From assembly GCA_005800795.1 (NCBI GenBank), contig SYEN01000053.1, positions 1 through 32,978 on the forward strand: DNA of 32,978 nt, in the 5' to 3' direction. Each line of letters starts with the position of its first letter. The stretch's first letter is position 1. This DNA is from Burkholderiales bacterium (GTDB lineage Bacteria > Pseudomonadota > Gammaproteobacteria > Burkholderiales > SG8-41). Below are positions 1,175 through 25,434 of this stretch, piece by piece. Position numbers and translations under genes: made by a program. The notes under the pieces are model-generated. The model worked only from the letters and a program-made list of their open reading frames with translations. It did no database searches and was not told the DNA's origin.

Positions 1175-2316
1175 ATGATTAACGTCGTTCGACATTGGAG
1201 CAGTGCGGTGCTGGCTGCTGCGGCGCTGATGTTGCCGAGTGCAGCGCACGCCGTGGGTACTGCGGCGGGCACGACCATCAGCAACTCGGCGACCGCGACT
1301 TACAACATCAACGGCGTTCCGGCCACGCCGGTGATCGGTTCGGTGGCGATCCGCGTGGACGAAATCATCCGCGTCGCGGTTACTGCGCCAGCCACGCAAA
1401 CGCCGGTGGTTGCGGGCGATGTCAACAAGGTGCTGACCTTCCGCGTCACCAACACCGGCAACGGTGCCGAGGCCTACAACCTGATTGCCAATCGCGCGGT
1501 GGGCGGCGATAACTTTGATCCAGCGGCAGGCACTGCAGGGAGCCTGTTTCAGGACACCAACGGCAACGGCGTGTTCGATGCGGGTATCGATCTTGCCGTG
1601 CCGCTGGTCCTCGGTGTGCCGCAACTGACATTGAATCCCGATGTGGTCACCACGGTTTTTGTGGTGTCCAACATCCCCGCCGGGCCGACCAACGGCCAGA
1701 CCGGTATCGTGTCGTTGACTGCACAGGCCGCTACGGCGGGTGCAACTGCCGCTGGCGTGGGCGTTGCGCCAGGCACAATCCGGCCAACCTCGGTACGCCT
1801 TCAGTGGGTGGCGGTACAGTGGACGCGGTGGTGGGCGCAGGCCCCGGCGGTGCAGCGGATTCCGGTGCGGATGATGCCTCCAATGGCACCTACATCATTG
1901 CCGCTGTCACGGTCACCGTTGACAAAGTGGTGCTGAACGTCACCAACCCGATGGGTGTGACCAGTGGCCCCTGTAACGTGGCGATCCCGCCTGCGGGTTG
2001 TACGGCATTCGTGCCGGGCAGTGTCATCGAGTACCAGGTCACTGTGACAGTCAGTGGCACCGGTACCGCGCAGGCCGTGACCATCAGCGACAACGTGCCC
2101 GCGAACACCACCTGGGTCGCGGGCAGCATTCGCGCCACCACCACCACGCCAGCGGTAACGCCGCTGAGCGCCAAGACCGATGTTGCGGATGGCGACAACG
2201 CCAGCTGCGTGGGTTGCGGCAATGCCGCGGGCACCATGATCGCGAACTTTGGCGACATCACGGTTGCCGGTGCGCCGATTGCCAACACCGTGACCTACAA
2301 AGTCACCATCAACTAA
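1175..2316 (+). pseudogene. Exported DUF11-like repeat protein, interrupted by a frameshift near 1772-1779
   Basis: RBS aaggagag before ATG 1175; signal peptide MINVVRHWSSAVLAAAALMLPSAAHA; frame 2 reads to ...GVGVAPGT, then homologous sequence NPANLGTPSVGGGTVDAVVG... continues in frame 1 to TAA 2314-2316. Confidence 0.7.
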
Positions 2317-2341
2317 TCACTCACCCAACGGAGGTAACACC

Positions 2342-2845
2342 ATGCAAAACATGTTTCGTTATTTCGCGACTGCCGGGTTTTCCGCTTTGCTTGCGGGCAA
2401 TGTGCTTGTTGCCCGAGCGCAGAACGTCGAGCTCGTCACCAAGGCCGAGAAAGAAATCGAGGTCGTTGAGAAAGGCGCCAAGGTCAAGAAGCTGGCGCCG
2501 CCGGAGAAAATGGTGCCGGGCGACGAGGTGGTTTACACCGTCTCGTACAACAACAAGACCGGCAAGCCCGCCGAGAAAGTGTTGATCACCAATCCGGTGC
2601 CGAAGTACACGCGCTACAAAGACGGTAGCGCGACGGGCGACAACACCGACATCACGTTCTCCGCCGACGGCGGCAAGACGTTCGCCACACCGGACAAACT
2701 CATCGTCACGATCAAAGACAAGAGCGGCAAGGACATCACGCGCCCAGCCGCCGCGGCGGAGTACACCCACATCCGCTGGACGCTCAAACAAAACGTCGCG
2801 CCGGGGCAAGCAGGCTCGGTGCGCTTCCGGGCGGTGATCTTGTGA
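2342..2845 (+). CDS. Exported small DUF11-like domain protein (167 aa)
   Basis: RBS ggaggt at 2331-2336; signal peptide ending LVARAQ; DUF11-like pattern PGDEVVYTVSYNNKTGKPAEKVLITNPVPKYTRY. Confidence 0.8.
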   Translation: MQNMFRYFATAGFSALLAGNVLVARAQNVELVTKAEKEIEVVEKGAKVKKLAPPEKMVPGDEVVYTVSYNNKTGKPAEKVLITNPVPKYTRYKDGSATGDNTDITFSADGGKTFATPDKLIVTIKDKSGKDITRPAAAAEYTHIRWTLKQNVAPGQAGSVRFRAVIL

Positions 2846-2990
2846 CGCCCGCCACAGATTTTGGTTTTCGGTTTTTTGGTTTCAGTTTTTTCGATTGGAG
2901 GTTCGTATCATGAAGTTCAGTAGATCGCAGGAAGATGTTCATAAGTGTTTGTTTTTATTAATTTTTTTATTTAATCACAAGGAGCAAGCC

Positions 2991-4343
2991 ATGAAATACT
3001 GGAGTAGTTGGTATCGAAGTGCCTTGGCCGGCATAGCATTAATTGCCGGCTTGGGATTGCATTCAACGGTGGCCTTTGGCCAAGCTGCAACGTCGCAATA
3101 CCTGGCGGGCGGCTCGTTTACCAACGGCGCCGGCACGGGCCAGGTGTCAGCCAACACCGATGTCACCAACCAGGCCACGCTGAGTTACACCATCAGCAGC
3201 ACGGCGCAGCCCAACATCACCAGCAACACCGCGACCTTCAAGGTGGACAACCTGGTGCGCGTGGTGGTGGCGGCAACCGACACGGCGCATACCGTGGTGG
3301 CGCCTGGCGCGCTGGCGCAGGTGACGACTTTTACCGTCACCAACACCGGCAACGCCAATTAGGATTACAAGCTGGATGCGGGTAACCTCGCTTCAGCCCA
3401 AACCCTGACCTACGGCGCGACGACGTACACCGACTCGTTCGACGGTTTGTCATGTCAGGCGTTTGCTGAAACCGGTGGCGGCGCGGGCTATCAGGCCGGC
3501 TCCGACACCAATCAGGCGATTGTCAGTCTGGCGCCGAACGCCTCGCGCACGGTGTATGTGGTTTGCAACATACCGCCCGCGCCGGGTTTGACCTCGGGTG
3601 ACGCCATCGTATCGCTGCTGGCGACCACGTATGATGCCACCAGTTGCGTAGCTTCTACCGGCGTCTGCGCCAGCGGCCTCACCACGCAAAACACCGCCAG
3701 CGCGGATAACCAGACTGCGGTTGACGTGGTATTTGCTGATGGCGCGGCTGCGTCTCCCGCAGTAACGGGCGATGCCGTGCGCGACGGCAAGCATGCTGCG
3801 GTGGATGTGTTCCGCATCGCCAACGCCAGCGTGACCGTGGCGAAATCGGTGACCACGCTGTGCGATCCGTTTAACTTCGCGGGCAACGGCACCACGGTGT
3901 TCCCGAAAGCCATCCCCGGTGCTTATGTACGGTATTCGATCCAGATTACCAACGCGAATACGGCAACGGCTTCGGCGACATTGGCGACCATCACCGATAC
4001 GCTGAATACCAACCTCACGTTCGATACGAACCTGATTACCGGTAATGCGACCACCTGTGATGCCACCACGCCGGAAAGCGCGGGTAATGCGTTCAAGCTG
4101 ACTTGCGCCGGCACCACCGGCCGGGCCTGCACGACGCCGGTGTTCTACACCAGCGCAGCGGATGCTGACTCCATCGGCATCTCGGGTGCGAACATCACGG
4201 CGAATCTGGCGACGGCATTGCCTCAGGTGGGCACCCCCACGTGTCCGAACGTCGGCACGCCGAGTGGCGCGGGGACGTATTGCGCGGGTGAATTAAAACC
4301 GGGCGAGACCGTCACCATCTTCTTCAACGCGATTATCAAATAA
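2991..4343 (+). pseudogene. Exported DUF11-like repeat protein with internal in-frame amber codon (TAG 3360-3362)
   Basis: RBS aaggag then ATG 2991; signal peptide; ORFs 2895-3362 and 3447-4343 are in the same frame and the sequence between them, DYKLDAGNLASAQTLTYGATTYTDSFDGLSCQAF, remains coding-like. Confidence 0.7.
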
Positions 4344-4384
4344 TCGCGGGCGGGAAGCGTAAAACGTAAGGCGCTGACAGCGGC

Positions 4385-7300
4385 ATGATCGCCCTGATCA
4401 CACGTAACCTCTGGCTGTGGCTCAGCCTGCTGGCGATGCTCGTTTCGAGCATCGCCGGGGCTGCCACGCCCAGCGGAACGGTGATTACCAATACGGCCAC
4501 GGCAACGTGGCGGATAGGGGCGAGCACGGTCAATGCCAGTGCAACGAAGCAGGTCGCGGTGTCACCGTACGCGGTGGGGCCGGATTTAAGCATCAGTCTT
4601 GCCGGCCCGGCGCAAGCCGGCCCCGGCGCCACGCTGGTGTGGAAGGCAGTCGCGGCAAATACAGGCCCCTCGGTGGCGGACGGTGCGCAGGTGACATTCA
4701 CCGTACCGCCGGGGGTTACCAATGTCAGCGGCTTGTGTTTAGTGTTGACCAGTGGCACATGCGGCGCCGTTACCGTGGGTACGCCCACGGCGGCCGGCAC
4801 GCCTGTCACTGTAAGTTTGGCCAACTTCCCAGTCGGCGCGCGCATCGAAGTGACGTTGCGGGGCACCGCACCGGCGGCAGTGGGTGAGTTGATTCATCAG
4901 GCGCAGATTTCGACAGGCAGTCTTGTCGATCCTACGCCGCTCAATAACGTGGCAACGTCGAAGACGAACATCGCTGCCGGGGCCGCCAATACCGGAACAC
5001 TTTCCGGCCGTGTGTGGCTCGACGTCAACCACGACCGTGTGTTCACGTCAGGTGAAATGCTGTTCGAGGGGTTTGTGGTGCGGGTGTACGATGCCGCGGG
5101 CACAACGCTCGTCAGACAGGTCGCCACTGGCGCCAACGGGCTGTATTCGCTTGCTGGTCTGCCGGCGGGCGTGAGTTATCAGATCGAGTTCCGTGACCGT
5201 GCGGGCAATGTCGTGTTCGGTCTGCCGGTAACGTCGGAGTCAGCGGGCGTGGGCGCAGGGTTTGCGCAGACCACGTCGTGCGCTACGCTGCGTGAAACTA
5301 CCGCGCCAAACGTCATGGTGCCGATGGCTGGCAACTGTTACAGCATGACCACCGGCGGATCGACCGCGCAGGTGCAGCGCACCGGCCGCACGCTGATATT
5401 CCTGCAGGCGGGCGACAACGTGATTGAACAAAGTCTGCCGCTGGATCCCGCCGGCGTGGTGTACGATTCAGTGACGCGTCAGCCCGTGGCGGGCGCCACG
5501 GTTACCTTCAGCGGCCCGCCGGGGTACGACCCGGCGCAGCATCTGTTGGGCGGCGCTGCGAATTCGAATCAGATCACGGGCGTGGATGGCTTCTATCAGT
5601 TCCTGCTGGTGGGCGGCGCGCCAGCCGGTACCTATACGCTGACGGTCACACCGCCTGCGGGCTATACCTCGCCGTCGCAAATACCGCCGAATCCGCAGCT
5701 CGACCCCACCGGTTTGGGTAGCGGCGGCGTCTATCTGGTGCAGGCGCAGCCGGGGCCTCCCACCGGCATCCAGCCGACGACTTACCACCTTTCCTTCAGT
5801 CTGGCGTTGGGCGATCCGAACGTGATTAACAATCACATTCCCATCGATCCGCCGGGCGTGGGCGGCACGCTGATTCTGACCAAGGTTGCGAGCAAAACCA
5901 TCGCGTCGGTGGGCGATTTTGTGCAGTATCAACTGGCGCTGTCGAATCCTGGCAAGGCACCGGTGGCGGGCGTGACGGTGAGCGACCGCTTGCCGCCGGG
6001 CTTCCGCTTCCGTCCGGGCACGGCGCAGATCGGCAAGGTGGCCGTGGCCAATCCGGCGATCTCAGCCGATGGCCGCACGCTGACGTTCACCATCGGCACG
6101 GTGTTGCCGGGTGCGGCGGCGATTGATATTCGCTACGTGACCGAGATTACCGTGGGCACGTCGCTGGGCGACGCGGTCAACAGCGCGCAGGCCACGGGCG
6201 CGGGCGGCGCGCGTTCGCTCAATGCACGCGCCACCGTCAATGTGAAGGAAGACCTGTTCCGCAGCCGTACCATTCTGATGGGTCGCGTAATCGAAGTCGG
6301 CGCCAGCGGGCCGAAACTGGCGCAAGGTGTTGGCACTGTAAGCGACGCGCCCGCGATCACCAGCAGTGCGGCCGGTCTGTGCAACCCGGAACAACACCTG
6401 GGCAAGGGTATTGAGGGTGCGCGCATTTTCATGGAAGACGGCGCGTATATCCGCACCGACAAGGAAGGTAAATGGCATATCGACGGCGTCAAGCTGGGCA
6501 CGCACGTGGTGCAGCTCGACGTGAAATCGCTGCCCGATGGTTACGAAGCCGTGCTGTGCGAAGACAATACCCGTCACGCGGGCCGCGCTTTCTCGCAGTT
6601 TGTGAACGTGCGCGGCGGCACGATGTGGCGCGCGGATTTCTATGTGCGCAACACTGGCAAGAGCAGCAACGGCTATGAAGCCGGACAGCGGCTGACAGTG
6701 CGCGCCGGCGAAGGCGTATTGAAGGCGACGCTGGAACTGAAAGGTGTGACCGCCGCCGTGCGCAACCTGTCGGCCACGGTCGCGCTGCCCGAAGGCATGA
6801 CCTACGTGCCAAACAGCGCGCGCATGAATGGCGGCGCGTTCGCCGAGCCGGAAATCAGCAACAACATACTGGTGTTTCGCGCGGGCGATACCAGCGCCAC
6901 GTGGAAAAAATCACTGACCTTCGATGTAAAAGGCGTGCCAGGCGCTGGCGCCGCGATGCAGTCAGTCGCGCAATTCCAGAGCGCCGATGGCGAAACCCGC
7001 CGCCTGCCGCCGGCGAGCGCGCCGCTGGCGGCACTGGGTAAATCGCAAATGCAGTCGGTGAGCGAACCAAAAATTATTCAATATAATCACATAGTTAAGG
7101 AAACAACACCTGCGGCGCCCGTCACGCCCGCAACCTCCGTTGCGCCTGCAGCAGCGCAACCGAACGTGAATGATCTGAACATCTACGCGCCCGGCTCGGA
7201 GAAATTCGACACCAATTGGTTGGCGACCGTCGCGCCGGGGCTAGAAGTGGTGTACCCGGCGGAAACCTTCATCCCCGGCACCAACGCGATCAAGGTGTTC

Positions 7301-10300
7301 GTCAAGCACGATCCGGCGCACCAGATCAAACTGACCGTCAACGGTGTGCCGGTGCATCGGCTCAATTTCGACGGCAACGATCACAACGCGCAAAAAACCG
7401 TCGGGTTGTCGCGCTGGGGCGGCGTGGGCTTGATCGACGGCGCGAATAAAGTCGTGGCCACCGCAGTGGATGCGGCAGGTAAGGAAGTGGGCCGCGCCGA
7501 GCGCATGATTCACTACTCGGGCGCGGGCGTCGAAGGCCGTCTGGTGAATGATGCCTCGGTGCTGGTTGCCGATGGCCGCACCGCGCCGGTGGTTGCCGTG
7601 CGTATTTTCGACCGCGAAGGCAAACCGGTGCGTCATGGCACGGAAGGTGAACTAGCGATTTCCGCACCCTATCAATCGCTGGAAGTGGTGCAGGCGCGTG
7701 ATTCGCGTCCGCTGCTCAACGCTGCCGGCAATCAGGCGCGCTGGCGCGTCACCGACGATGGACTTGCGCTGATTCGCCTGCAGCCGACCACGACGTCGGG
7801 CGAGGTGTCGCTGACGCTGAACTTCCAGGGCCGCCCGCCGCAAATTATTCGCGCGTGGTTGAAGCCCGAAATGCGCGAATGGATACTGGTGGGTCTGGGT
7901 GAAGGCACCATCGGCCAGCGCAAGCTGTCGGGCGCGGTGGAGAATCTGCCGGCGGACATGGCCGACGACAAGTTGTGGAAAGACGGCCGCGTGGCGTTTT
8001 ATGCCAAGGGACAGGTCAAGGGTGAATTCCTCGTGACCATGGCCTACGATACCGACAAGGAACGTAAACGTCTGGGTGGGGCGCAAGGCGATCGCCTGCT
8101 GCAAGGTATCGATCGCAAACAGTACTACACCGTCTACGGCGACAGTAATAGCGCCCAACACGACGCCGCCAGCACGCGCAAGCTGTATCTGAAGATTGAA
8201 AAGAATCAGTGGTACGCCATGTTCGGTGATTACAACACCGGCATGACCGTGACAGAATTGTCGCGTTACTCGCGCACGCTGAACGGCATCAAGAGCGAAT
8301 TCCGCGGCACCAATGTGTCCTATACCGCGTTCGCCACCAAGACCGCGCAGGCCTTCGTCAAGGACGAGCTGCGGCCCGACGGTACATCGGGTTTCTACCG
8401 GCTCACGCGCGGCAACATCATCCCCAACAGCGAAAAGGTGACGATTGAAACGCGCGATCGTTTCCGCAACGAGGTCATCGTCAAGAGCGAGCCGCAATCG
8501 CGCGGCATTGATTACGACGTTGACTACGCGCTGGGCACGTTGATTTTCCGCAAGGCGATCACCGGCAAGGATCAGAATTTCAATCCGATGTACATCGTGG
8601 TGGATTACGAGTCGGAAGACCCCACGCGCGATGAGCGCGTCACCGCCGGCGGCCGTGTGGCGGTGCGCACCAGCGACGGCAGGGCCGAGGCCGGCGTCAG
8701 CGCGATTCGTGAAGGTAGCATCGGTGCACGCGGCGATTTGAAGGGCGTGGACGCCACGGTGCAGATCGACGACAAGACCAAACTGCGCGCCGAATACGCG
8801 CACAGCAGCCGCGAGCTGGCCGGCACGACGGCATCGGGTAACGCCTATGTGATTGAAGCACGCCGGCAGGATGGCAATGTGGCCGCCACCGCTTATGTGC
8901 GCGGTCAGCAGGGCACGTTCGGGCTGGGCCAACAGGCCGCGGCAAATGGTGGCACCACCAAGGTGGGCGGAGACGTGTCGGTGAAAATGAGCCCCGAAGT
9001 CACCATCAATGCACGCGCGCAGCACGAGCGTGTCGAAAACGCCGGTGCGCAAGCAGAACGCTCGCAGATCGAGGCGCGCGCCAATCTGGTCAGGCCCGAG
9101 TACGGCGCTTATGTAGGTGGACGCATTGTGCGCGATCAAACCTCGACCGGTGAGACGCAGAATTCCAATCAACTGGTGGCGGGCGGCGCGCACAAATTCA
9201 TGGATGGCCGCTTGAACCTGCGCGTCGATTCCGAGATCAATCTCGGCAGCAGTGGCGGCAGCAACGTCAACAGCACCGACTTCCCGCATCGCGTGCGCGT
9301 GGGCGCCGACTACAAGGTGACCGACAAGCTGTCGCTGTTCCTCGATCAGGAGCTGACCTTTGGCGACCGTGAAAATACGCACACCACGCGCATCGGCACC
9401 AAGACCAAGCCGTGGGACGGCGCAGAAAGCGCCAATTCGCTCAACCTGCGGCAGACACCCGACGGCCCGGTGGTGTCCACCACCAGTAGCATGACGCAAG
9501 CCATGCGCCTGTCGCCGGAACTAACGGTGAACGTGGGTATGGATCGCACGAACACGATACGCAAGCCCGGCACCACACAACTGAACCCGAACGTGCCTGC
9601 CGCGCAGGGCGTGAACGCCACGGCGGGCGCGGCCTCGCAAAGTATTCTGCCGCCTGCGGGTATTGCCACTGCGCCAGTGGAGGATTACACCGCCGTGTTC
9701 GCGGGGGCAACGTGGAATCAGGGGCCGTGGGGCGCCACCGCGCGCGCCGAGTACCGCCACGGCGATACCACCAACAAGGTGAATGTCGCGGGCACTCTGC
9801 ACCGCGACATTGCATCGGGTCAGGCGATTGCCGCGACAGCGCTCTATAGCAACACGCGTGGCGGCGCACTGGCGGACAGCAAGACGCTGGATCTGCGCCT
9901 CTCCTACGCGTTCCGGCCTATCGACAGCCTGTGGGTGGTGTTGAGCCGCCTCGATTACATCCAGGAAGAATCCAATGCCACCGGCGGCGCGCGCAGCCAC
10001 CGCATGGTGATGAACAACAATGTCAACTACCAGTTCAATCGCAGCACGCAGATTGCGTTCCAGTATGGTGCGAAATACGTGTTCGACAACTTTGATCGCG
10101 TCAGTGCCTCGGGCTTTACCGACATCTATGGCGCCGAAATGCGTTACGACTTCGGCAACCGCTTCGATATCGGCGCGCACGCGGCGCTGCTGAACTCGTG
10201 GGGATCAGATGTGCACGTGGCGTCGTACGGCGCATCGGTCGGCTTCGCGCCGGTGCGCAACCTGTGGCTGGGCGTGGGCTATAACTTCGCGGGCTTCCGC

Positions 10301-10429
10301 GACCGCGATTTCACCAGCGCCAACGCCACCGCCAAGGGCTGGTATCTTTATCTGCGCATGAAGGCGGATCAGGGCGAGAAGGACACCACCACCAAGCGCA
10401 AGTTGATGTTTGAAGAAGCGGCGAACTGA
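4385..10429 (+). CDS. Giant (2014 aa) exported protein: DUF11 and SdrD-B/Cna-B-like repeats, Ig-like linker region, C-terminal predicted outer-membrane beta-barrel
   Basis: Signal peptide MIALITRNLWLWLSLLAMLVSSIAGAA; SdrB-like SGRVWLDVNHDRVFTSGEMLFEGFVVRVYD...GLYSLAGLPAG; C-terminal third made of alternating amphipathic strands (YYTVYGDSNS..., LYLKIEKNQWYAMFGDYN, WYLYLRMKAD). Confidence 0.85.
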   Translation: MIALITRNLWLWLSLLAMLVSSIAGAATPSGTVITNTATATWRIGASTVNASATKQVAVSPYAVGPDLSISLAGPAQAGPGATLVWKAVAANTGPSVADGAQVTFTVPPGVTNVSGLCLVLTSGTCGAVTVGTPTAAGTPVTVSLANFPVGARIEVTLRGTAPAAVGELIHQAQISTGSLVDPTPLNNVATSKTNIAAGAANTGTLSGRVWLDVNHDRVFTSGEMLFEGFVVRVYDAAGTTLVRQVATGANGLYSLAGLPAGVSYQIEFRDRAGNVVFGLPVTSESAGVGAGFAQTTSCATLRETTAPNVMVPMAGNCYSMTTGGSTAQVQRTGRTLIFLQAGDNVIEQSLPLDPAGVVYDSVTRQPVAGATVTFSGPPGYDPAQHLLGGAANSNQITGVDGFYQFLLVGGAPAGTYTLTVTPPAGYTSPSQIPPNPQLDPTGLGSGGVYLVQAQPGPPTGIQPTTYHLSFSLALGDPNVINNHIPIDPPGVGGTLILTKVASKTIASVGDFVQYQLALSNPGKAPVAGVTVSDRLPPGFRFRPGTAQIGKVAVANPAISADGRTLTFTIGTVLPGAAAIDIRYVTEITVGTSLGDAVNSAQATGAGGARSLNARATVNVKEDLFRSRTILMGRVIEVGASGPKLAQGVGTVSDAPAITSSAAGLCNPEQHLGKGIEGARIFMEDGAYIRTDKEGKWHIDGVKLGTHVVQLDVKSLPDGYEAVLCEDNTRHAGRAFSQFVNVRGGTMWRADFYVRNTGKSSNGYEAGQRLTVRAGEGVLKATLELKGVTAAVRNLSATVALPEGMTYVPNSARMNGGAFAEPEISNNILVFRAGDTSATWKKSLTFDVKGVPGAGAAMQSVAQFQSADGETRRLPPASAPLAALGKSQMQSVSEPKIIQYNHIVKETTPAAPVTPATSVAPAAAQPNVNDLNIYAPGSEKFDTNWLATVAPGLEVVYPAETFIPGTNAIKVFVKHDPAHQIKLTVNGVPVHRLNFDGNDHNAQKTVGLSRWGGVGLIDGANKVVATAVDAAGKEVGRAERMIHYSGAGVEGRLVNDASVLVADGRTAPVVAVRIFDREGKPVRHGTEGELAISAPYQSLEVVQARDSRPLLNAAGNQARWRVTDDGLALIRLQPTTTSGEVSLTLNFQGRPPQIIRAWLKPEMREWILVGLGEGTIGQRKLSGAVENLPADMADDKLWKDGRVAFYAKGQVKGEFLVTMAYDTDKERKRLGGAQGDRLLQGIDRKQYYTVYGDSNSAQHDAASTRKLYLKIEKNQWYAMFGDYNTGMTVTELSRYSRTLNGIKSEFRGTNVSYTAFATKTAQAFVKDELRPDGTSGFYRLTRGNIIPNSEKVTIETRDRFRNEVIVKSEPQSRGIDYDVDYALGTLIFRKAITGKDQNFNPMYIVVDYESEDPTRDERVTAGGRVAVRTSDGRAEAGVSAIREGSIGARGDLKGVDATVQIDDKTKLRAEYAHSSRELAGTTASGNAYVIEARRQDGNVAATAYVRGQQGTFGLGQQAAANGGTTKVGGDVSVKMSPEVTINARAQHERVENAGAQAERSQIEARANLVRPEYGAYVGGRIVRDQTSTGETQNSNQLVAGGAHKFMDGRLNLRVDSEINLGSSGGSNVNSTDFPHRVRVGADYKVTDKLSLFLDQELTFGDRENTHTTRIGTKTKPWDGAESANSLNLRQTPDGPVVSTTSSMTQAMRLSPELTVNVGMDRTNTIRKPGTTQLNPNVPAAQGVNATAGAASQSILPPAGIATAPVEDYTAVFAGATWNQGPWGATARAEYRHGDTTNKVNVAGTLHRDIASGQAIAATALYSNTRGGALADSKTLDLRLSYAFRPIDSLWVVLSRLDYIQEESNATGGARSHRMVMNNNVNYQFNRSTQIAFQYGAKYVFDNFDRVSASGFTDIYGAEMRYDFGNRFDIGAHAALLNSWGSDVHVASYGASVGFAPVRNLWLGVGYNFAGFRDRDFTSANATAKGWYLYLRMKADQGEKDTTTKRKLMFEEAAN

Positions 10430-13400
10430 TGGACAACGTGACAGACAAGTGGCGGTTGTATCGTGCTGAAGCCATGAGAAACCAGTGTGTGCGGATTTTG
10501 CTGCACATGGTATTTTTACTTGCGGGCCTGACCGCGTCGTTGCAGGTGCCGGTGGCGCGGGCAGAAGCTTTTTACACGATCACCAATGCGGGTATCTTCA
10601 GCGTCGATACGCTCGACGGGGGCCCGCCGGTGCAGCTGCTGGCGTTCGCGCAGACGCTTGCTGCCACGCTGGCAGTGCGTCCCAGCGATGGCATGCTATT
10701 CTGGCTGGACAGCACGGGAGCCAACCCGGGGTTGTGGCGCTGGGATCCGGCCAATCCCACTTTGCCGGCGGTGTTTGTTGGCACGCCGGGAGCCACCACC
10801 ACCGGCGTGATCCGATTGGCGTTTGACGCGGCCGGAACGCTATACGCGATGAATCCCGGACCCTCGACATTGTGGACACTGGATCCCAACACGGGCGGCA
10901 TCCTGACCGCTACGACGGCCAGCGGTGCCGTGGTACCGGCGGGTGGCGACATCTGCCTGCACCCGGCTACCGGCGTGCTATACATGGTTGCTCAGACGCA
11001 GTTGTTCACCATCGACAGCTCGGCTGTGGTGACGCTTCTGGGTAACGTGACGTTTTCTCCCGCGCTGCCCGCGACACCGTCAATGACCGGGTGCGCATTT
11101 GATCGCAATGGCCGACTGGTCGTTTCGCCGGCCACATCGGCCTCGCTGCACGCCATCAATATCAGTACGCTCGTTGCCACGCCGCTTGCCGTGTCCACGG
11201 GTTTTACCGCGGGAGCTATGGGCGATCTAGCCACCGCGCCGGGCCGCGTTTCGGACTTGAGACTGACAAAGACTGCCAGCAATCTCACGCCCGGCAATAC
11301 GGTGAGCTTCACGCTCACGGTGACCAATAATGGTCCGGATCGCGCGACGGACGTGCGGGTGCGAGACGTGCTGCCGGCTGGCCTGACGTTTGTCTCCGCG
11401 ACGGCAAGCCAGGGCACCTATTCGACAGCAGCGGTAGGGGCTTTTCCCGCCGGCACCTGGCGCATAGGTACCATGAACAATGGGGCTACAGCAACATTGA
11501 CAATCAATGTATCGGTGACCGGGGCGACAGCGATTACCAATATGGCGCAGATTTCGCATTCGGATCAATTCGACCCCGATTCGACTCCCAATAACAGCGT
11601 TGCGAGTGAAGACGATCAGGCGTCTGTGGTGATCGTGCCCAGTCCGGACTTGCAGATTACCAAAGTGGCGGTCGGAACCTTTACCGTGGGCACGAACAGC
11701 ACGTACAGGATATCTGTCAACAATCTGCTGGGTAGTGCCGCCACAAGTGCGGCCTACACGGTAACCGATACCATGGTACCCAGCCTGACCATTGTGGGAA
11801 CGCCGAGCGGCCCGGGCTGGAATTGCTCAGCATCAACATCGACGCAATTGAGCTGTACCAGCAGTACCGCTATTGCGGCCGGCGGAACCAATCCTGGCCT
11901 GATTACGCTGACCGTGCTGCCCAGTGCTGCGGCGTCACCCAGCGTTACCAATGTCGCCACGGTAGCCGGCGGGGGCGAACCAGCGTCCAATAGCGGCAAT
12001 AATAGTTCAGGCGTGATCACAACTGCCGTGTGCGCGGGCAGTTGCCCTGACCTGGTGGTCAACAAAACGCTATCGGTGGCGAGTCTGACAGTCGGTGTCA
12101 ACACGTCTGTTTACACCTTGAGCGTCACCAACACCGGCGGCCTTACGACAGGCACATCGACGTATACCATTACCGATAACCTGCCCGCCGGGCTTACTCT
12201 GGCAGCTGCACCCACGGCTGGTCCAGGCTGGACATGCACACCCAATGCCGGAGCGCTCGAAAACGTGGTCAACGGTACCAAGGTTATTTGCAGCCGCAGT
12301 ACCGCCGTGGTACCCGGAGGCACGTCTTCAACGATTACGTTCACGGTGATCGTCGGCAATGCGGCGGCACCGAGCGTCACCAACACGGCCAGCGTTTCCG
12401 GTGGTGGCGAGCCCACAAGTGCCACCGGAAACAACAGCACCAGCCTAGTTACGCCAGTGATTGATTTCGATTTGCAGACCAGCAAGACCAAAACAACCGC
12501 CGGGAACTTTAACTTGGGCGTGACCACTGACACGTACACCATCGTGATCAACAATATCGGTGGCCGCAATTCCACGGGCACCTATACTGTCACCGATGTA
12601 TTACCGACCGGTCTCACGTTGACCACGGCAGGCGGCGGTGCCGGATGGGCGATAGGCACAGGTTGGACTTGCGCGGCGAACACGCCTGCGGCGGGCGATA
12701 ACGTGGCGGGCGGTTCCCGTGTTGTATGTACCCGGTCCACCAGCATTAACTCGGGTGCCGCGTCGACCAGTATTGTATTTCCCGTCACGGTGGCAGTAGC
12801 CGCAGTGCCCAGCGTCAGCAATACTGCTACCGTCAGCAACCCCAATGAATCGGCGAATCTGCTGACGAATAATTCGTCAACGGTCGTGACATCGGTGAAT
12901 GCGCCGGATCTCATGGTATCGAAGTCGCACACCGGCAATTTCACCGTGGGCCAAACGGGCACGTACACCATCACTGCGTTCAACAACGGCGCGCAGGCGA
13001 CAACGACCGCGACCGTGACGGTGACGGATACTTTGCCAGCGGGACTGGTCTATACCTCGACCAGCGGTAACGCTACGGGCACAAACTGGACTTGTGCCGC
13101 AGCCCCGGTTTCGCCGGCAACCACGCAAACGGTGACGTGTACCACCACGTCGCGGGCCGCCAATACGGCTTACCCACCGATTACGTTGCCTGTGACTGCG
13201 ACGACCGCAGGAACGCTGACCAACAATGTCAGTATCGCCGGCGGTGGCGAGCCTGCAGTCAACAATGGAAGCAACACCGATTCCGATGTCACGCAGGTGT
13301 TCGTCACGCCGACAGTCAGCAAGGCGTTTTCTCCCGCCAGCGTGCAGGCGGGTGTGACTTCCCAACTGACCATCACCATCAATAATCCGGCTACGTTTGC

Positions 13401-15027
13401 GATTACCGGTGTGGCGGTGGTCGATCCGTTTCCCGCGGGTATGTCGGTGACAGCCACGCCGGCGTTTGTGACCACGAATTGCGGCACCTTCACTGTGATT
13501 TCCGGCAACACGCAGGGCGACACGCTGGTTTCCCTGACCGGCGGAACGATTCCCGCGTCGAGCAGTTGCACGATACAGGTGAATGTCAGCAGCACCACCG
13601 TCGGAGCGAATGTCAACATCGTAGATAACGTCAGCACAACCAACAGTGGCACTGGTACGCAAGCGGCGGCGGCCAGAACCGCCACCTTGACAGTGACAGC
13701 GCCCGGCTCGCCCGTTTTGTCAAAGTTGACTGCGCCCGATCCTGTAGGCGTGAACCAGCTTGCCACAATGACGTTCACGATCAATAACAAGACTACGGCC
13801 ACCACCGACATGGGATTTACCGATAATTTTCCTGCCGGCGTGGTGTATCGCGGTACCACGAGTATGAGTTGTACCAGTACCGGTGGCACTGCCTTTTCTC
13901 TGACCGAACAGACCGGTGCGGCGAATGTAGCGGGCGCAGCACTGGTGGCAGGCACCAGCACTGGCATCAAGGCGCTGGGCATCGATCTCGTAGGCAGCGC
14001 GTCGTGTACGATCGTCATTACGGTATCCAGCGCGACGCCGGGCTCGTATCTGAACTCCAGTACCGCGCCCACGGCCGCAACCAGCAATATTCCCTCCGGC
14101 TCGTTGCAGGGCGGACTTACCGCGCCCGGTATAAACGACACGCTGGTGGTGGTCGGCACCACGCTGACCAAGACCTTCAGCCCGTCAACCGTGGTTATCG
14201 GCCAATCGTCCAATTTGACCTTCGCCATCACCAACGGCGCGGGAGCGCCACAGCAAGGCGGGCTGGCATTTACGGAAACGCTGCCCGCTAATGTGGTTGT
14301 GGCGTCCGCGCCATCGGCGACGCAGTGCGGCGGCACGGTGACGGCCCCGGTTGGGCTGGGCACGATTACGTTCAGCGGTGGCGCCATGGCATCGGGCCTC
14401 GCGGTTTGTAACATAGTGGTACCCGTCAGGTCCGGCCTCGCAGGCACGTATAACAATACACCTGCCAACGTAACTGGTGTATCTGCCGGCATGACCAATA
14501 GCGCCAACGCGACCTTGACGGTGAACAGTGGAGTGGCTTTGAATTTTGCAAAGTCGCTGAGGACGGTTTGCGATCCGCAAAATTTCGCCGGGAACGGCAC
14601 GACGATTTTCCCCAAAGCGATTCCAGGCGCCTACGTGCAATACACGCTTACCATTTCCAATGGCGCGGGGGCCGTGAATTCAGCGAATCTAACCACCATC
14701 ATCGACGCGCTAGACCCGAACCTGAGTTTTGATGTCGATCTGCGCACGGGCACTCCCACCACTTGCGCGACGTCCCCGCCGGAGAACGCGGGTGGCAGAG
14801 GTTTCGTGCTGACGTGCATGGGCGGCACGCGTAACTGTACGACGCCGATATACTTCACCAGCGCATCGGGTGACGATGCCATGGGGATTTCGGGTTCATC
14901 CATCACATTGACGTTTGGCGACAGTCCAGGTGCGCCCAAGGCGCTGCCTACAGAAACCGGCTACGGCCCGGGCGAGCTAGAGCCCGGTGAGTCAATCACG
15001 ATAAGATTTAACACCATCGTCAAATAG
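10429..15027 (+). CDS. Large (1532 aa) exported protein: N-terminal beta-propeller-like region followed by about eight DUF11 repeats and a conserved C-terminal module
   Basis: TGATG overlap with the upstream gene; signal peptide-like segment from M16; repeat starts such as PDLQITKVAVGTFTVGTNSTYRISVNN, PDLVVNKTLSVASLTVG, PDLMVSKSHTGNFTVGQTGTYTITAFNNG; C-terminus homologous to that of the 2991-4343 gene. Confidence 0.85.
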   Translation: MDNVTDKWRLYRAEAMRNQCVRILLHMVFLLAGLTASLQVPVARAEAFYTITNAGIFSVDTLDGGPPVQLLAFAQTLAATLAVRPSDGMLFWLDSTGANPGLWRWDPANPTLPAVFVGTPGATTTGVIRLAFDAAGTLYAMNPGPSTLWTLDPNTGGILTATTASGAVVPAGGDICLHPATGVLYMVAQTQLFTIDSSAVVTLLGNVTFSPALPATPSMTGCAFDRNGRLVVSPATSASLHAINISTLVATPLAVSTGFTAGAMGDLATAPGRVSDLRLTKTASNLTPGNTVSFTLTVTNNGPDRATDVRVRDVLPAGLTFVSATASQGTYSTAAVGAFPAGTWRIGTMNNGATATLTINVSVTGATAITNMAQISHSDQFDPDSTPNNSVASEDDQASVVIVPSPDLQITKVAVGTFTVGTNSTYRISVNNLLGSAATSAAYTVTDTMVPSLTIVGTPSGPGWNCSASTSTQLSCTSSTAIAAGGTNPGLITLTVLPSAAASPSVTNVATVAGGGEPASNSGNNSSGVITTAVCAGSCPDLVVNKTLSVASLTVGVNTSVYTLSVTNTGGLTTGTSTYTITDNLPAGLTLAAAPTAGPGWTCTPNAGALENVVNGTKVICSRSTAVVPGGTSSTITFTVIVGNAAAPSVTNTASVSGGGEPTSATGNNSTSLVTPVIDFDLQTSKTKTTAGNFNLGVTTDTYTIVINNIGGRNSTGTYTVTDVLPTGLTLTTAGGGAGWAIGTGWTCAANTPAAGDNVAGGSRVVCTRSTSINSGAASTSIVFPVTVAVAAVPSVSNTATVSNPNESANLLTNNSSTVVTSVNAPDLMVSKSHTGNFTVGQTGTYTITAFNNGAQATTTATVTVTDTLPAGLVYTSTSGNATGTNWTCAAAPVSPATTQTVTCTTTSRAANTAYPPITLPVTATTAGTLTNNVSIAGGGEPAVNNGSNTDSDVTQVFVTPTVSKAFSPASVQAGVTSQLTITINNPATFAITGVAVVDPFPAGMSVTATPAFVTTNCGTFTVISGNTQGDTLVSLTGGTIPASSSCTIQVNVSSTTVGANVNIVDNVSTTNSGTGTQAAAARTATLTVTAPGSPVLSKLTAPDPVGVNQLATMTFTINNKTTATTDMGFTDNFPAGVVYRGTTSMSCTSTGGTAFSLTEQTGAANVAGAALVAGTSTGIKALGIDLVGSASCTIVITVSSATPGSYLNSSTAPTAATSNIPSGSLQGGLTAPGINDTLVVVGTTLTKTFSPSTVVIGQSSNLTFAITNGAGAPQQGGLAFTETLPANVVVASAPSATQCGGTVTAPVGLGTITFSGGAMASGLAVCNIVVPVRSGLAGTYNNTPANVTGVSAGMTNSANATLTVNSGVALNFAKSLRTVCDPQNFAGNGTTIFPKAIPGAYVQYTLTISNGAGAVNSANLTTIIDALDPNLSFDVDLRTGTPTTCATSPPENAGGRGFVLTCMGGTRNCTTPIYFTSASGDDAMGISGSSITLTFGDSPGAPKALPTETGYGPGELEPGESITIRFNTIVK
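11240..14560 (+). repeat. About eight tandem DUF11 coding repeats, ~400-450 nt period
   Basis: Repeat starts near 11240, 11640, 12046, 12466, 12901, 13309, 13706 and 14155 with the pattern (P)DLxxxK...GxxxxYTIxxxN. Confidence 0.75.
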
Positions 15028-15186: not shown

Positions 15187-16158
15187 ATGGCTCACGCTAT
15201 ACGCATCCACCAGCACGGTGGCCCCGAAGCGTTGCGGTGGGAGGAAGTCAGCGTCGGTGACCCCGGCCCCGGCGAAGTGCGCGTGCGTAACACCGCCATC
15301 GGTTTGAATTTTATCGACACCTATCAACGTTCGGGCCTGTATCCGATGCCGTTGCCGTTTACCTGCGGCTCGGAAGGCGCGGGCGTGGTCGAGGCTGTCG
15401 GTCCGAAAGTGAAAGGCCTGAAGAAAGGCGACCGCGTAGCGTATGCCAATCCGATTGGCGCGTATGCCGAAGTGTTGCTGCGGCCGGCTGAAAAGCTGGT
15501 GAAAATACCTGCCGGTGTCAGCGATCAGACCGCTGCCGCGATGATGTTGAAGGGGATGACGGCATGGTACCTGCTGCGCCGCACCTTCAAGGTGAAGAAA
15601 GGCGACACGATTCTTGTGCATGCGGCCGCGGGCGGCGTCGGCCAGATTCTGTGCCAGTGGGGCAAACACCTGGGCGCCACAGTGATTGGCACCGTGGGCA
15701 GCGAAGGCAAGGTTGCGGCGGCGAAAAAAGCGGGCGCCAAACATGTCATCGTTGCCGAGCGTGAAGTGGTGTCCAAGCGCGTGCGCGAAATCACCAAGGG
15801 CAAGGGCGTGCCGGTGGTGTACGACGGCACTGGCAAGGAAACCTTCATGGATTCGCTGGATTGTTTGGCGCCCCTGGGCACCATGGCAAGCTACGGCAAC
15901 GCCTCCGGCGCGGTGCCGCCGTTCAACATCGGCATCCTTGCGCAGAAAGGCTCGCTGTTTCTGACGCGCCCCACGCTGGGCAATTACACCGCCACGCGCG
16001 CTGATCTTGAAACCGCCGCGCGCGATCTGTTCTCGGTGGTGAAAAAAGGCGCGGTCAAAATCGCCATCAATCAGACCTATCCGCTGATCGAAGCCGCGCA
16101 GGCGCACCGCGATCTCGAAGGCCGTAGAACCACCGGCTCTACTGTGCTGCTGCCCTGA
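15187..16158 (+). CDS. qor: NADPH:quinone oxidoreductase-like zinc-independent MDR protein
   Basis: aaggag RBS; MAHAIRIHQHGGPEALRWEEV, LNFIDTYQRSGLYPMPLPFTCGSEGAGVVEAVG, AAAGGVGQILCQWGKHLGATVIGTVGSEGK. Confidence 0.85.
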   Translation: MAHAIRIHQHGGPEALRWEEVSVGDPGPGEVRVRNTAIGLNFIDTYQRSGLYPMPLPFTCGSEGAGVVEAVGPKVKGLKKGDRVAYANPIGAYAEVLLRPAEKLVKIPAGVSDQTAAAMMLKGMTAWYLLRRTFKVKKGDTILVHAAAGGVGQILCQWGKHLGATVIGTVGSEGKVAAAKKAGAKHVIVAEREVVSKRVREITKGKGVPVVYDGTGKETFMDSLDCLAPLGTMASYGNASGAVPPFNIGILAQKGSLFLTRPTLGNYTATRADLETAARDLFSVVKKGAVKIAINQTYPLIEAAQAHRDLEGRRTTGSTVLLP

Positions 16159-16508
16159 TGCGCGCAGCAGTGCTGTTAGTGTGCGGCATGGGTGCGGCGT
16201 TTGCGCCGTGGCCTGTTCACGCGCAAGCGCAAAAACCCGCGCCGGTGAAAGAACGTTCCAGCGGCGCGGCATCACCGCAACTCTTGCAGCAGCAGCGCGC
16301 TACGGTCAGCTACCGCGACGTGACACAGGCGGCGTACGAATCCAAATTGGCCGAGCAGGACGTGCTGAATTTGCAGGACGCCTACAACGCCGCACGTGAG
16401 CGTTCCGATGCGCTCAAGGTGGAACTCGACAAGGCGCTCAAGGCACGGGATGCTGCGCGTGCAACCGAGGCTGCGGCGCGCAAGCGGTATGAAGAGGCGT
16501 TAAAGTAA
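16158..16508 (+). CDS. Small exported coiled-coil protein of unknown function (116 aa)
   Basis: TGATG overlap with qor-like gene; signal peptide MRAAVLLVCGMGAAFAPWPVHAQA; Ala/Lys/Glu-rich helical C-terminal half. Confidence 0.6.
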   Translation: MRAAVLLVCGMGAAFAPWPVHAQAQKPAPVKERSSGAASPQLLQQQRATVSYRDVTQAAYESKLAEQDVLNLQDAYNAARERSDALKVELDKALKARDAARATEAAARKRYEEALK

Positions 16509-16557
16509 CTGATAGCGTCAGTCCCCGGCCCCGTCACAATCATTACGGAACTGAAAC

Positions 16558-17787
16558 GTGTTGCCTTTGCATAATCTGCCGCCACCGCCCGCCGGTGCAC
16601 CACTCGCACTGTTAAAGGGCATTACCGTGCTCGATCTCACCACGTCCATCGCCGGGCCTTATGCCGCGATGCAGTTGGGTGACATGGGAGCCGAAGTCAT
16701 CAAGATCGAACGTCCCGGCAAGGGCGATGATTGCCGCGCGTGGGGGCCGCCGTGGCTCGACGGCGAATCGCTGTGGTTCATGAGCGTCAACCGCAACAAA
16801 CAAAGTGTCACGCTCGATTACACCAGCGAGGCGGGACGCGCCGTGCTGCATGACATCGTGCGCAAGGTGGATGTGGTGATCGTCAATCTCACCGGCCGTG
16901 TGCAAAAAAAGCTCGGCGTCGATCACGCGGCGCTGTCGGCGGTGCGGCCGGACATTGTGCATGTGTCGCTGTCGGGCTTCGGGCTCACCGGCGCCCGCCG
17001 CGATTTCCCCTGTTATGACTTGATTGCCGAGGGCTACAGCGGGGTGATGGATTTAACCGGCGAAGCTGAAAATCTGCCGCAGAAAATCGGCACGCCCGCC
17101 GCGGATTTGATAGCCGGCATGGATGCGGCTTACGCCACACTTGCCGCGCTGTTCGACCGTCAGCGTACCGGCAAGGGCCACAAGATCGATATCTCGATGA
17201 TCGACAGCATGACGCGCTTCATGTCGCCACGCATCGTGCCGTATCTGGGCGGAGGGCCACTGCCCAAACGCACCGGCGCGCGAGACAGCGTGATTTCGGT
17301 GTATCAAACCTTCGATACGCAAGACCGGCCGATCACGCTGGGTCTGGGCAACGACGGCATTTTCAAACGTTTCTGGCAGGCAGTGGGTCAACCGGCTGTG
17401 GCGGATGATCCACGCTACGCCACCAATGCTGAACGTACTGCCGTGCGCCCGGAGCTGGTTGAAAAAATACAGGCCGTACTGCGTACACAATTGCGCGAAT
17501 ATTGGCTGAAAAAGTTTGTCGAGCATAACGTGCCGGCGGGGCCGGTCAACAGTGCCGAAGAAGTGGTGCGCGATCCGGAGTTGGTGGCGCGCGGACTGTT
17601 TTACACGGCAACCGCAGGCGCCAGAAAAATTCCGCAGGTCGGTTTGGGCATTGCGGTCGACGACAGCAACGCCACCTATCGCAGCGCGCCGCCGTTGTTG
17701 GGCGAGCATAACGATGTCGTGCTGGGCGGACTGCTGGGCTACGATGCCGTGCGAATTTCACAACTGAAAATCCAGAAAGTGATATAA
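16558..17787 (+). CDS. Family III CoA-transferase (CaiB/BaiF)
   Basis: GTG start (alternatives possible); LLKGITVLDLTTSIAGPYAAMQLGDMGAEVIKIERPGKGDDCRAWGPP, NRNKQSVTLDYTSEAGRAVLHDIVRKVDVVI, VARGLFY. Confidence 0.9.
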   Translation: MLPLHNLPPPPAGAPLALLKGITVLDLTTSIAGPYAAMQLGDMGAEVIKIERPGKGDDCRAWGPPWLDGESLWFMSVNRNKQSVTLDYTSEAGRAVLHDIVRKVDVVIVNLTGRVQKKLGVDHAALSAVRPDIVHVSLSGFGLTGARRDFPCYDLIAEGYSGVMDLTGEAENLPQKIGTPAADLIAGMDAAYATLAALFDRQRTGKGHKIDISMIDSMTRFMSPRIVPYLGGGPLPKRTGARDSVISVYQTFDTQDRPITLGLGNDGIFKRFWQAVGQPAVADDPRYATNAERTAVRPELVEKIQAVLRTQLREYWLKKFVEHNVPAGPVNSAEEVVRDPELVARGLFYTATAGARKIPQVGLGIAVDDSNATYRSAPPLLGEHNDVVLGGLLGYDAVRISQLKIQKVI

Positions 17788-17789
17788 AA

Positions 17790-18569
17790 ATGTCCTTTAA
17801 AACAATTACTTATGAAGAAGAAGGCGCTATCGGCTGGCTCACACTAAACCGCCCTGACGACGGCAATATGTTCACCGCCGAGATGTGTCACGAGATACGT
17901 GACTGCATTAACGACATCCGCCGGGAAACGCGCACGCGTGTCATTGTCATCACCGGCGCGGGCGATAAGTTCTTTTGCATCGGCGGTCGCAAGGATGGTC
18001 TCGAAGACACCACGCTTTACGCCGGCATGCTGCCGACGCGGGAGATTTACGAAAGCCTCGAGCGCCTGCAAAAGCCGGTGATCGCCATGGTAAACGGCTA
18101 CGCGGTGGGCGGCGGGCAAGTGCTGCAAGTGATGTGCGACATCACGGTGGCGAAAGAAAGCGCGGTGTTCCGCCAGGTCGGCCCGATGATGGGTAGCTTC
18201 GACGCGGGCTACGGCACTTGGTACCTCGAAGACCTCGTCGGCAAAAAGAAGGCCAAGGAAATGTGGTTTGCCAATCCGCGTTTGTCGGCTAAAGAAGCGC
18301 TGGAAATCGGCTTGATCAACAAGGTCGTGCCGGACGACAAATTGCGCGAAGAAACCCGCAAAATGGCGCTGGAGATAGCGGATCGTGGCGCGTTTGCGTT
18401 GGCTTCATTAAAGGCCGCGTTTACCGCGCGGCACACTGGCGTGACCGGGCTGGCGCGGGTGTCGCATGATTTGTTGCTGCGCTTGTATCTGGATTCGGAT
18501 GAGTCGAAAGAGCTGGGCGAATCGTTTCGTGGGAAACGTAAGCCAGATACGGATTTGTTTGGGCACTAA
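17790..18569 (+). CDS. Crotonase-family hydrolase/hydratase resembling BadI (2-ketocyclohexanecarboxyl-CoA hydrolase) and MenB
   Basis: VNGYAVGGGQVLQVMCDITVAKESAVFRQVGPMMGSFDAGYGTWYLEDLVGKKKAKEMWFANPRLSAKEALEIGLINKVVP and C-terminal FRGKRKPD as in BadI/MenB. Confidence 0.8.
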   Translation: MSFKTITYEEEGAIGWLTLNRPDDGNMFTAEMCHEIRDCINDIRRETRTRVIVITGAGDKFFCIGGRKDGLEDTTLYAGMLPTREIYESLERLQKPVIAMVNGYAVGGGQVLQVMCDITVAKESAVFRQVGPMMGSFDAGYGTWYLEDLVGKKKAKEMWFANPRLSAKEALEIGLINKVVPDDKLREETRKMALEIADRGAFALASLKAAFTARHTGVTGLARVSHDLLLRLYLDSDESKELGESFRGKRKPDTDLFGH

Positions 18570-18619
18570 GGTCAACGTCAAAAACCTTGACGCAGATAAA
18601 CGCAGATTAAAAACCACAA

Positions 18620-18702
18620 CTGTCATTCCCGCGAAAGCGGGAATCCATAAGCCGTCTCAAGTGGCACTGTGTTATGGATTCCCGCTTTCGCGGGAATGAC
18701 AG
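18620..18702. repeat. Perfect 31-bp inverted repeat (21-nt loop) containing GTCATTCCCGCGAAAGCGGGAATCCA; dispersed REP/dRS3-like element
   Basis: Arms 18620-18650 (ctgtcattcccgcgaaagcgggaatccataa) and 18672-18702 (ttatggattcccgctttcgcgggaatgacag) are exact reverse complements. Confidence 0.9.
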
Positions 18703-18727
18703 GTTGGAGATTTCACGTAATCGCCTC

Positions 18728-20380: not shown

Positions 20381-21147
20381 TGGCCATAGAACTGACTCGT
20401 GTCGAGGATTTTGCGTTGATTACCATCAATCGTCCCGACGCCCTGAACGCGCTGTCGCTGGCGCTGATACGCGACCTTGGCGCGTGCATTGACGAGGTGG
20501 CCAAGAGCGATACCCGCGCGTTGATTATTACCGGCGCCGGCCCCAAGGCGTTTTGTGCCGGTGCGGATATCAAGGAGTTGCAAGGCCGCAGCTTGATGGC
20601 ACAAAAGCAGGGCGGCGAATTCGGGCAGGCGACGTTCGCCAAACTTGATACGTTGCCGATGCCTTCCATTGCGGTGATCAACGGTTATGCATTTGGGGGC
20701 GGCATGGAACTGGCGCTGGCCTGCACCTTCCGTCTTGCCACGAAGAACGCCAAAATGGGTACGCCCGAAATCAAGCTGGGGCTGATCCCCGGTTACGGCG
20801 GCACACAGCGACTGCCGCGGGTGGTGGGTGAAGCGCGCGCGCTGGACATGGTGATGACAGGGCGCACGGTCGACGCCGAAGAAGCCGTGCGCATCGGGCT
20901 GGTGAGCCGTATCGTAGAGGGGGAGGCGGTTGCAGCGGGCATTGCCTACGCACGCGAGTTCTCGGGCTACAGCCTGCTGGTGCTGCAATTCGCGCGGGAT
21001 GCGGTCACGCGCGCCGGCGAAACGCCGCTGCACGCCGGTCTGAAAATCGAGGCCGATCTGGCGACGCTGGCGTTTCAGACGCAGGATGCGGTCGAGGGCA
21101 TGGCCGCGTTCGCGGAGAAACGCAAGGCCGTGTTTAAAGACAAGTGA
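20380..21147 (+). CDS. Enoyl-CoA hydratase/crotonase (BadK-like candidate)
   Basis: TAATG overlap with the synthetase; INGYAFGGGMELALACTFRLATKNAKMGTPEIKLGLIPGYGGTQRLPR carries both catalytic Glu contexts (GGGxELA and PEIxLG). Confidence 0.9.
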   Translation: MAIELTRVEDFALITINRPDALNALSLALIRDLGACIDEVAKSDTRALIITGAGPKAFCAGADIKELQGRSLMAQKQGGEFGQATFAKLDTLPMPSIAVINGYAFGGGMELALACTFRLATKNAKMGTPEIKLGLIPGYGGTQRLPRVVGEARALDMVMTGRTVDAEEAVRIGLVSRIVEGEAVAAGIAYAREFSGYSLLVLQFARDAVTRAGETPLHAGLKIEADLATLAFQTQDAVEGMAAFAEKRKAVFKDK

Positions 21148-21156
21148 GGATGCAAC

Positions 21157-21906: not shown

Positions 21907-21949
21907 TGTTTGTAAATATGTGTTTAATTGAATAATTTTAAGGCTCGCG

Positions 21950-23125: not shown

Positions 23126-23134
23126 AGGTGAAGC

Positions 23135-24262: not shown

Positions 24263-24301
24263 TCAATAAAAACAAATACTTATGAATAAACAAGAACGGC
24301 A

Positions 24302-25294: not shown

Positions 25295-25319
25295 CAGGTT
25301 CTGTGGCGGGGTCTATAAA
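25291..25319 (+). promoter_or_regulatory. Near-consensus sigma70 promoter TTGACA-N17-TATAAA
   Basis: TTGACA 25291-25296, 17-bp spacer, TATAAA 25314-25319; -35 box overlaps the TGA stop of the preceding gene. Confidence 0.6.
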
Positions 25320-25434
25320 TTCAATTCAACGGGTTTTTGTCACAGGGGTTGCAGAGTATTCCACTGGAAAATCTCTGTGACCGCTGTGTCCTCAGCAGCT
25401 AAACTATTTTGACCATTAATTCGGGAGATAGCAC

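Follow-up and report, generated by a model that had tools for sequence, protein, structure and literature searches.

A DUF11 gene cluster encoding a giant barrel-like protein as a candidate outer-membrane docking system in a Burkholderiales bacterium

Introduction

Isopeptide bonds have been shown to form in DUF11 (CLIPPER) domains, which are found in the stalks of fibrillar adhesins; the sorting and anchoring domains of these adhesins include Por_secre_tail, CHU_C, and LPXTG (PMC12617251). A DUF11 protein has also been implicated in the aggregation of Methanothermobacter cells (PMC6759345, PMC10787695). Here, we describe five consecutive genes (g1 to g5, all on the + strand, positions 1175-15027) of a Burkholderiales bacterium, in which DUF11-type proteins are encoded beside a giant protein, g4, with a barrel-like C-terminal domain. 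The stretch analyzed, called the window below, is an entire contig (SYEN01000053.1, our C508; 32,978 nucleotides) of a draft genome that is 62% complete and divided into 582 contigs. A preliminary sequence-only reading of the window had proposed that g4 anchors or exports its neighbors as a fiber or adhesive coat. No literature account of such a barrel/DUF11 system was found in a search that left subscription journals largely outside.

Several described pathways invite comparison. In type 5a and 5b secretion, passenger and barrel are encoded as one protein or by two adjacent genes, and the type 5a autotransporter barrel (PF03797) has 12 strands. Chaperone-usher systems combine a PF00577 usher with a PapD-like chaperone, inverse autotransporters (intimin/invasin) place the barrel at the N terminus and an immunoglobulin (Ig)-like passenger at the C terminus, and TonB-dependent receptors consist of a plug domain and a receptor barrel. 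In type 9 secretion, SprA is reported to be the translocon (PMC10994853) and type B C-terminal domains to associate with PorP-like barrels (PMC9143113).

Results and Discussion

The barrel-like protein g4

The 2014-amino-acid g4 protein (4385-10429, + strand) consists of an Ig-like N-module fused to a C-terminal barrel-like domain. Four Pfam matches exceed the family cutoffs, namely, two to DUF11 and one each to SdrD_B (residues 207 to 276) and CarboxypepD_reg (residues 357 to 425). In the DUF11 domain at residues 496 to 605, Lys500, Asp534, and Asn599 occupy the isopeptide positions. The conserved core of the N-module (5003-6649, + strand) reaches residue 755, and further Ig-like domains with weak similarity to Big_1/Invasin_D3 precede the barrel-like domain at residues 960 to 1160 (7262-7864, + strand).

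The barrel-like domain itself (residues 1165 to 2014; 7877-10426, + strand) extends over about 840 residues, starting earlier than the last ~770 residues to which the sequence-only reading had assigned a barrel. Inside-outside alternation along the strands gave a z value of 3.9 for residues 1440 to 2014 versus 0.9 for the N-module, and values of 3.7 to 4.0 were obtained for four relatives. Two AlphaFold models, each based on a shallow alignment of six sequences, drew about 31 up-and-down strands with mean pLDDT values of 50 and 49; given this low confidence, closure is not confirmed, and we base no claim about closure or a plug on the models. Foldseek searches with both models returned mostly large outer-membrane barrels at low TM-scores (LptD, MtrB, BtuB, FimD, SprA, and SlpA), with PapC and TonB-dependent receptors also among the matches. 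Outer-membrane proteins usually end in an aromatic or hydrophobic residue, and the final residue is F, Y, W, M, I, or L in 34 of 49 homologues of the split type described below. Four lines of evidence (strand alternation, models, the ends of split homologues, and Foldseek matches) give the C-terminal region of g4 the appearance of an outer-membrane barrel. Conservation within the family is highest at residues 1210 to 1409, and part of this block, residues 1322 to 1410 (8348-8614, + strand), reads like a β insert after about seven strands, which inspection suggests as a possible usher-like plug.

No named secretion-barrel family matched above its cutoff when g4 was searched against Pfam and NCBIfam and 13 family members against Pfam. 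Specifically, Pfam gave no SprA_N, Autotransporter, ShlB, Usher (PF00577), or TonB-dependent receptor plug or barrel match on g4 or these 13 proteins. A genome search for SprA_N was empty as well, as were its controls, which makes it uninformative. Homology to a solved structure was rejected, with nothing convincing among PDB sequences for g4, g5, or the barrel profile. The earlier view that the cluster represents no recognizable known pathway is thus borne out, none being assigned by Pfam, NCBIfam, or PDB sequence. A phage origin was likewise rejected; the barrel profile found no relative among viral contigs, and while plasmid copies exist, most of the copies found lie in whole-genome contigs.

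The partner proteins

Proteins encoded by all five genes have Sec-type N termini, and a Shine-Dalgarno-like sequence precedes g1, g2, and g3. Membership in the DUF11 family (PF01345/TIGR01451) is indicated for g4 and g5 by Pfam matches above the cutoff and for g2 by a TIGR01451 match above the cutoff. The 1532-amino-acid g5 protein (10429-15027, + strand) had been described as a string of repeats, in agreement with the seven DUF11 stretches and one DUF7933 domain assigned by Pfam. Its isopeptide positions are filled by Lys281, Asp313, and Asn371 and, according to motif searches and inspection, in most of the other repeats. Both g4 and most g5 repeats carry the residues for isopeptide bonds, whose formation is predicted. 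The proteins encoded at the g5 position downstream of other barrel genes range from 388 amino acids (locus L181) to about 7,700. At the upper end, a 7,722-codon open frame directly downstream of a barrel gene (L207; G280:C1, from about 1860409) is a candidate giant surface fiber.

The g2 protein (2342-2845, + strand; 167 amino acids) has a signal peptide and a single DUF11-like domain that scores slightly below the Pfam cutoff (23.8 bits). Its family shares the motif S-x-D-GGKT...YTHIRW, and Asn replaces Asp at the isopeptide position. The other two genes encode Sec-exported, paralogous proteins and are broken in the window. The g1 gene (1175-2316, + strand; DUF11-like product) is split into a frame at 1175-1936 and a second at 1804-2316, with the frameshift placed between 1717 and 1786, and g3 (2991-4343, + strand) is interrupted by an in-frame TAG (3360-3362) at a site occupied by sense codons in two close relatives. 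Both are intact in relatives, with lengths of 429 (g1) and 470 (g3) amino acids in L009, an uncultured betaproteobacterium of the same genus (G002), and of 369 and 466 amino acids in L033. Of the five signal-peptide, DUF11-type genes originally listed, all five loci and their Sec-type N termini stand, but only g2, g4, and g5 are intact, and the DUF11 signal of g1 and g3 is weak at the Pfam level.

The stop codon of g4 overlaps the start codon of g5 (TGATG), and short overlaps between these genes also occur in L009, L033, L034, L100, L180, and L181, so g4 and g5 are probably transcribed together. Consensus scans for promoters and terminators gave signals no higher than those in shuffled sequence. 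Open reading frames (ORFs) were defined by length, without a gene finder.

A shared C-terminal strand

The g1, g2, g3, and g5 proteins share a feature that the sequence-only reading had not seen and that gives the idea of docking or export a concrete form. All four end in a β-strand of the form [FY]-x-[AVG]-x-[VI]-x-COOH, with the aromatic residue six positions from the end: YKVTIN in g1 (2296-2313), FRAVIL in g2 (2825-2842), FNAIIK in g3 (4323-4340), and FNTIVK in g5 (15007-15024), all on the + strand. For counting, we used the pattern [FYM].[AVGTLICS].[VIL].$, which was fitted to the C termini after inspection; because it was chosen on cluster proteins, the counts within clusters are descriptive and do not test the idea. 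Within the window's clade, the pattern was present in 17/17 g2 proteins and 31/33 g1/g3 proteins, and over all loci in 29/42 g2 and 30/34 g1/g3-like proteins; many g5-type proteins likewise end in the strand. It occurred in 2 of 48 N-modules of the split form and in 19 of 1,287 other ORFs of at least 200 amino acids, a set that includes nongenes.

DUF11 proteins encoded outside the clusters had not been used to choose the pattern. Among these, the strand was found in 8 of 10 proteins from barrel-positive genomes (4/5 and 4/5) and in none of 10 from barrel-negative genomes (0/3 and 0/7; pooled Fisher P = 0.0007), but the positives all belong to f79 or f85, two related groups, so kinship could explain the difference. 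This check allowed an optional final P, found in one subclade, which none of the eight positives needs. Comparison with the split N-modules, the other ORFs, and the DUF11 proteins of barrel-negative genomes did not support the mere end of a DUF11 domain as a full explanation of the strand, although it may still be one. Several of the negative proteins end in hydrophobic tails resembling other sorting tags. Hydrophobic C-terminal tails, VPTLSEW-like in several cases, were observed in DUF11 proteins of L216, L220, L222, and L226 to L228, which suggests another sorting route.

Distribution and the fused and split forms

Within the window's order, the barrel profile matched 46 of 300 genomes. Among Pseudomonadota, it matched 65 of 399, of which 58 are convincing, the others being marginal or short. 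The family f79, probably alphaproteobacterial and represented by small drafts (1.2 to 2.9 Mb) outside the window's class, encodes the barrel in a large share of its sampled genomes, and because it contributes heavily, 58/399 is not an even census. A strong DUF11 match was present in 58 sampled Pseudomonadota genomes, 40 of which encode the barrel. Several relatives of g4 are annotated as TonB-dependent receptors. In the window's assembly, all DUF11 matches are confined to the window's contig.

The full gene order g1-g2-g3-g4 is also found at other loci, both in the window's order (L009, L033, L087, L088, and L100) and beyond it, in family f85 and others (L149, L151, L158, L167, L170, L174, L176, L177, and L179 to L181). 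Family f85 probably belongs to the Sphingomonadales, since its split barrels group with that of the Sphingomonadaceae locus L012. Similar clusters with an upstream g2 homologue are carried on plasmids of Acinetobacter, Pacificitalea, Synechococcus NIES-970, and Deinococcus QL22, the Deinococcus barrel match being weak (105 bits).

The family has a fused form, in which a single protein comprises both N-module and barrel, as in g4, and a split form, in which adjacent genes encode them. An upstream g2 gene is present in 40/40 fused loci for which 3.5 kb or more of upstream sequence is available but in only 1/40 split loci, the cyanobacterial one; this length and the 80-bit cutoff for g2 were chosen during tabulation. 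The neighborhood expected by the sequence-only reading is therefore a property of the fused form of the family and does not extend to the other 39 split loci. A tree of 98 rows requires four or more changes between the two forms, so the association follows lineages, reflects few independent events, and has an overstated Fisher P value (8e-22). Small DUF11 neighbors at every barrel were accordingly rejected as a rule, split forms without g2 being known.

Full-length g2 was detected in 38 of the 399 genomes, 31 of which also encode the barrel (Fisher P = 1e-23, for genomes that are not independent). Among the seven g2 genomes without a barrel are drafts that are incomplete as well as four complete genomes (G400, G401, G537, and G652), in which a relaxed barrel search gave no convincing match (best E value, 0.44, in G652). 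The existence of orphan copies led us to reject g2 as exclusive to barrel genomes. Homologues of g2 that are distant from any barrel gene were seen in L196, L198, and L202 to L205, several with the same C-terminal strand.

Comparison with described systems

The cluster resembles the CLIPPER adhesins in its tandem Ig-like DUF11 stalks, its Lys/Asp/Asn positions, and its long secreted proteins (PMC12617251; PDB 9IFR). Unlike those adhesins, the stalk proteins of the window carry no such sorting or anchoring tail, and the gene for a dedicated giant barrel-like protein lies next to theirs.

Resemblance to type 5a and 5b secretion lies in the two forms, a passenger with a C-terminal barrel in the fused form and two adjacent genes in the split form. 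The differences are the size of the barrel-like part (about 31 predicted strands over ~840 residues, with no PF03797 match as found in type 5a) and the additional DUF11 partner genes of the fused form. With chaperone-usher pili, the cluster shares a large barrel (predicted for g4), a conserved β insert that may be a plug, Ig-like partners, and Foldseek matches to FimD and PapC. In contrast to an inverse autotransporter, the barrel-like domain of g4 is C-terminal, although weak Big_1/Invasin_D3 matches lie in the Ig domains preceding it.

Features in common with type 9 secretion are a very large outer-membrane barrel, predicted in the case of g4, and several cargo (or candidate cargo) proteins with a common C-terminal end, possible cargo genes also being scattered in the genome. 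However, the cluster family is found mainly in Pseudomonadota, and there are no motor genes among the recurrent neighbors of the barrel. No cluster protein had a Por_secre_tail or gliding-type C-terminal domain match in Pfam or NCBIfam. The recurrent neighbors also included no chaperone, among those neighbors that were scanned, and no transporter at a fixed position.

A docking hub and its alternatives

With roughly even confidence, we favor a role for g4 in the outer membrane as the hub on which DUF11 stalk proteins, binding by their C-terminal strand, dock and are displayed. Following export by Sec, the C-terminal ~840 residues of g4 would form a very large β-barrel in that membrane, and the Ig-like N-module would be displayed outside the cell. 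The g1, g2, g3, and g5 products would be Sec-exported stalk proteins whose last strand, ending at the carboxyl terminus, may dock onto g4 or pass through it. Together, g4 and its partners could assemble a fibrous coat, its repeats locked by Lys-Asn isopeptide bonds and g5 acting as a fiber of variable length. In favor of this interpretation are the barrel-like features of g4, the association of g2 with fused barrels, the similar plasmid clusters in distant groups, the shared C-terminal strand with its occurrence in DUF11 proteins outside the clusters, the g4-g5 overlap, the very long downstream partners, and the OmpA-family neighbors. An outer-membrane-barrel-like protein with dedicated DUF11 neighbors, as the sequence-only reading had it, is supported; an adhesive function we infer.

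In a more far-reaching version, which we regard as rather doubtful, the fused barrel would be the outer-membrane port of an unrecognized secretion and anchoring system that recognizes Sec-exported DUF11 clients by [FY]-x-[AVG]-x-[VI]-x-COOH. Such clients would be encoded both beside the barrel and elsewhere in the genome, and the system, spread over Pseudomonadota, Cyanobacteriota, and Deinococcota, would be analogous, not related, to type 9 secretion.

Several observations weigh against a docking hub. The 40/40 g2 counts are not 40 independent events, given about four changes between fused and split forms, and orphan g2 genes exist in genomes without a detected barrel. As two orphan g2 proteins retain the strand (AFHAILN in L196 and AFNTIVH in L198), it may be a general property of such folds. 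The barrel-positive genome G057 encodes a DUF11 protein that has a hydrophobic tail and lacks the strand. None of the models shows barrel closure or g4 touching a partner, and both g1 and g3 are broken in the window organism's assembly.

The main rival, possible though on the doubtful side, is that g4 is a self-sufficient, autotransporter-like surface protein with an N-terminal stalk and a C-terminal barrel anchor, its neighbors being unrelated to it. The DUF11 proteins would then be separate matrix or periplasmic products of the operon, neither anchored nor exported by g4, and the shared C terminus would be the last strand of a final Ig-fold domain. Split systems, whose N-module and barrel are not accompanied by g2, favor this explanation, as do the orphan g2 genes without a barrel, and genes ending at a domain boundary would share their end by descent. 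It fits less well with the presence of g2 upstream of all 40 fused barrels and with a terminal spacing that is fixed over four gene types yet rare in split N-modules (2/48) and absent from the 10 DUF11 proteins of barrel-negative genomes.

It is somewhat unlikely that the cluster is decaying and nonfunctional in the window's organism, a reading compatible with the others for the family at large. The g1 frameshift, the g3 stop codon, and the absence of a barrel match from 11 of 13 same-genus genomes searched would agree with decay. Against this, three genes (g2, g4, and g5) are intact, with open frames of 6.0 kb for g4 and 4.6 kb for g5, close relatives have intact copies, and single-base errors are possible in so fragmented a draft. 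Finally, the notion that g4 serves in uptake, as a receptor or porin whose extracellular domains are large and which is supplied by DUF11 capture factors, draws on TonB-dependent receptors among many other Foldseek barrels, the CarboxypepD_reg domain, and the annotation of several relatives, but is improbable in view of plug/receptor Pfam matches in 0/13 family members, the lack of a transporter gene at a fixed position beside the barrel, and the length of the partner stalks, which reach about 7,700 amino acids and are ill-suited to a capture factor.

Genomic surroundings

In several loci, the barrel gene is followed by a gene for an OmpA-family protein, which is plausible as a wall anchor. 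Response regulator genes adjoin the cluster in L035, L038, L086, L094, and L097, with histidine kinases (CHASE2 or 7TMR-DISM) in L038 and L094. The window's contig starts with a tRNA-Met (CAT) gene at 26-101. Downstream of the cluster, at 15187-26724, lie genes resembling those of acyl-CoA and CoA-transferase metabolism by sequence; similar genes adjoin the cluster in L034 and lie near it in L032, on a contig shared with L009.

Implications

Roughly every seventh Pseudomonadota genome sampled encodes the barrel family (58/399 convincing matches). Should the C-terminal strand prove to signal docking or export, clients could be predicted from sequence by a simple rule, and a possible explanation would be at hand for how DUF11 stalk proteins stay on Gram-negative cells.

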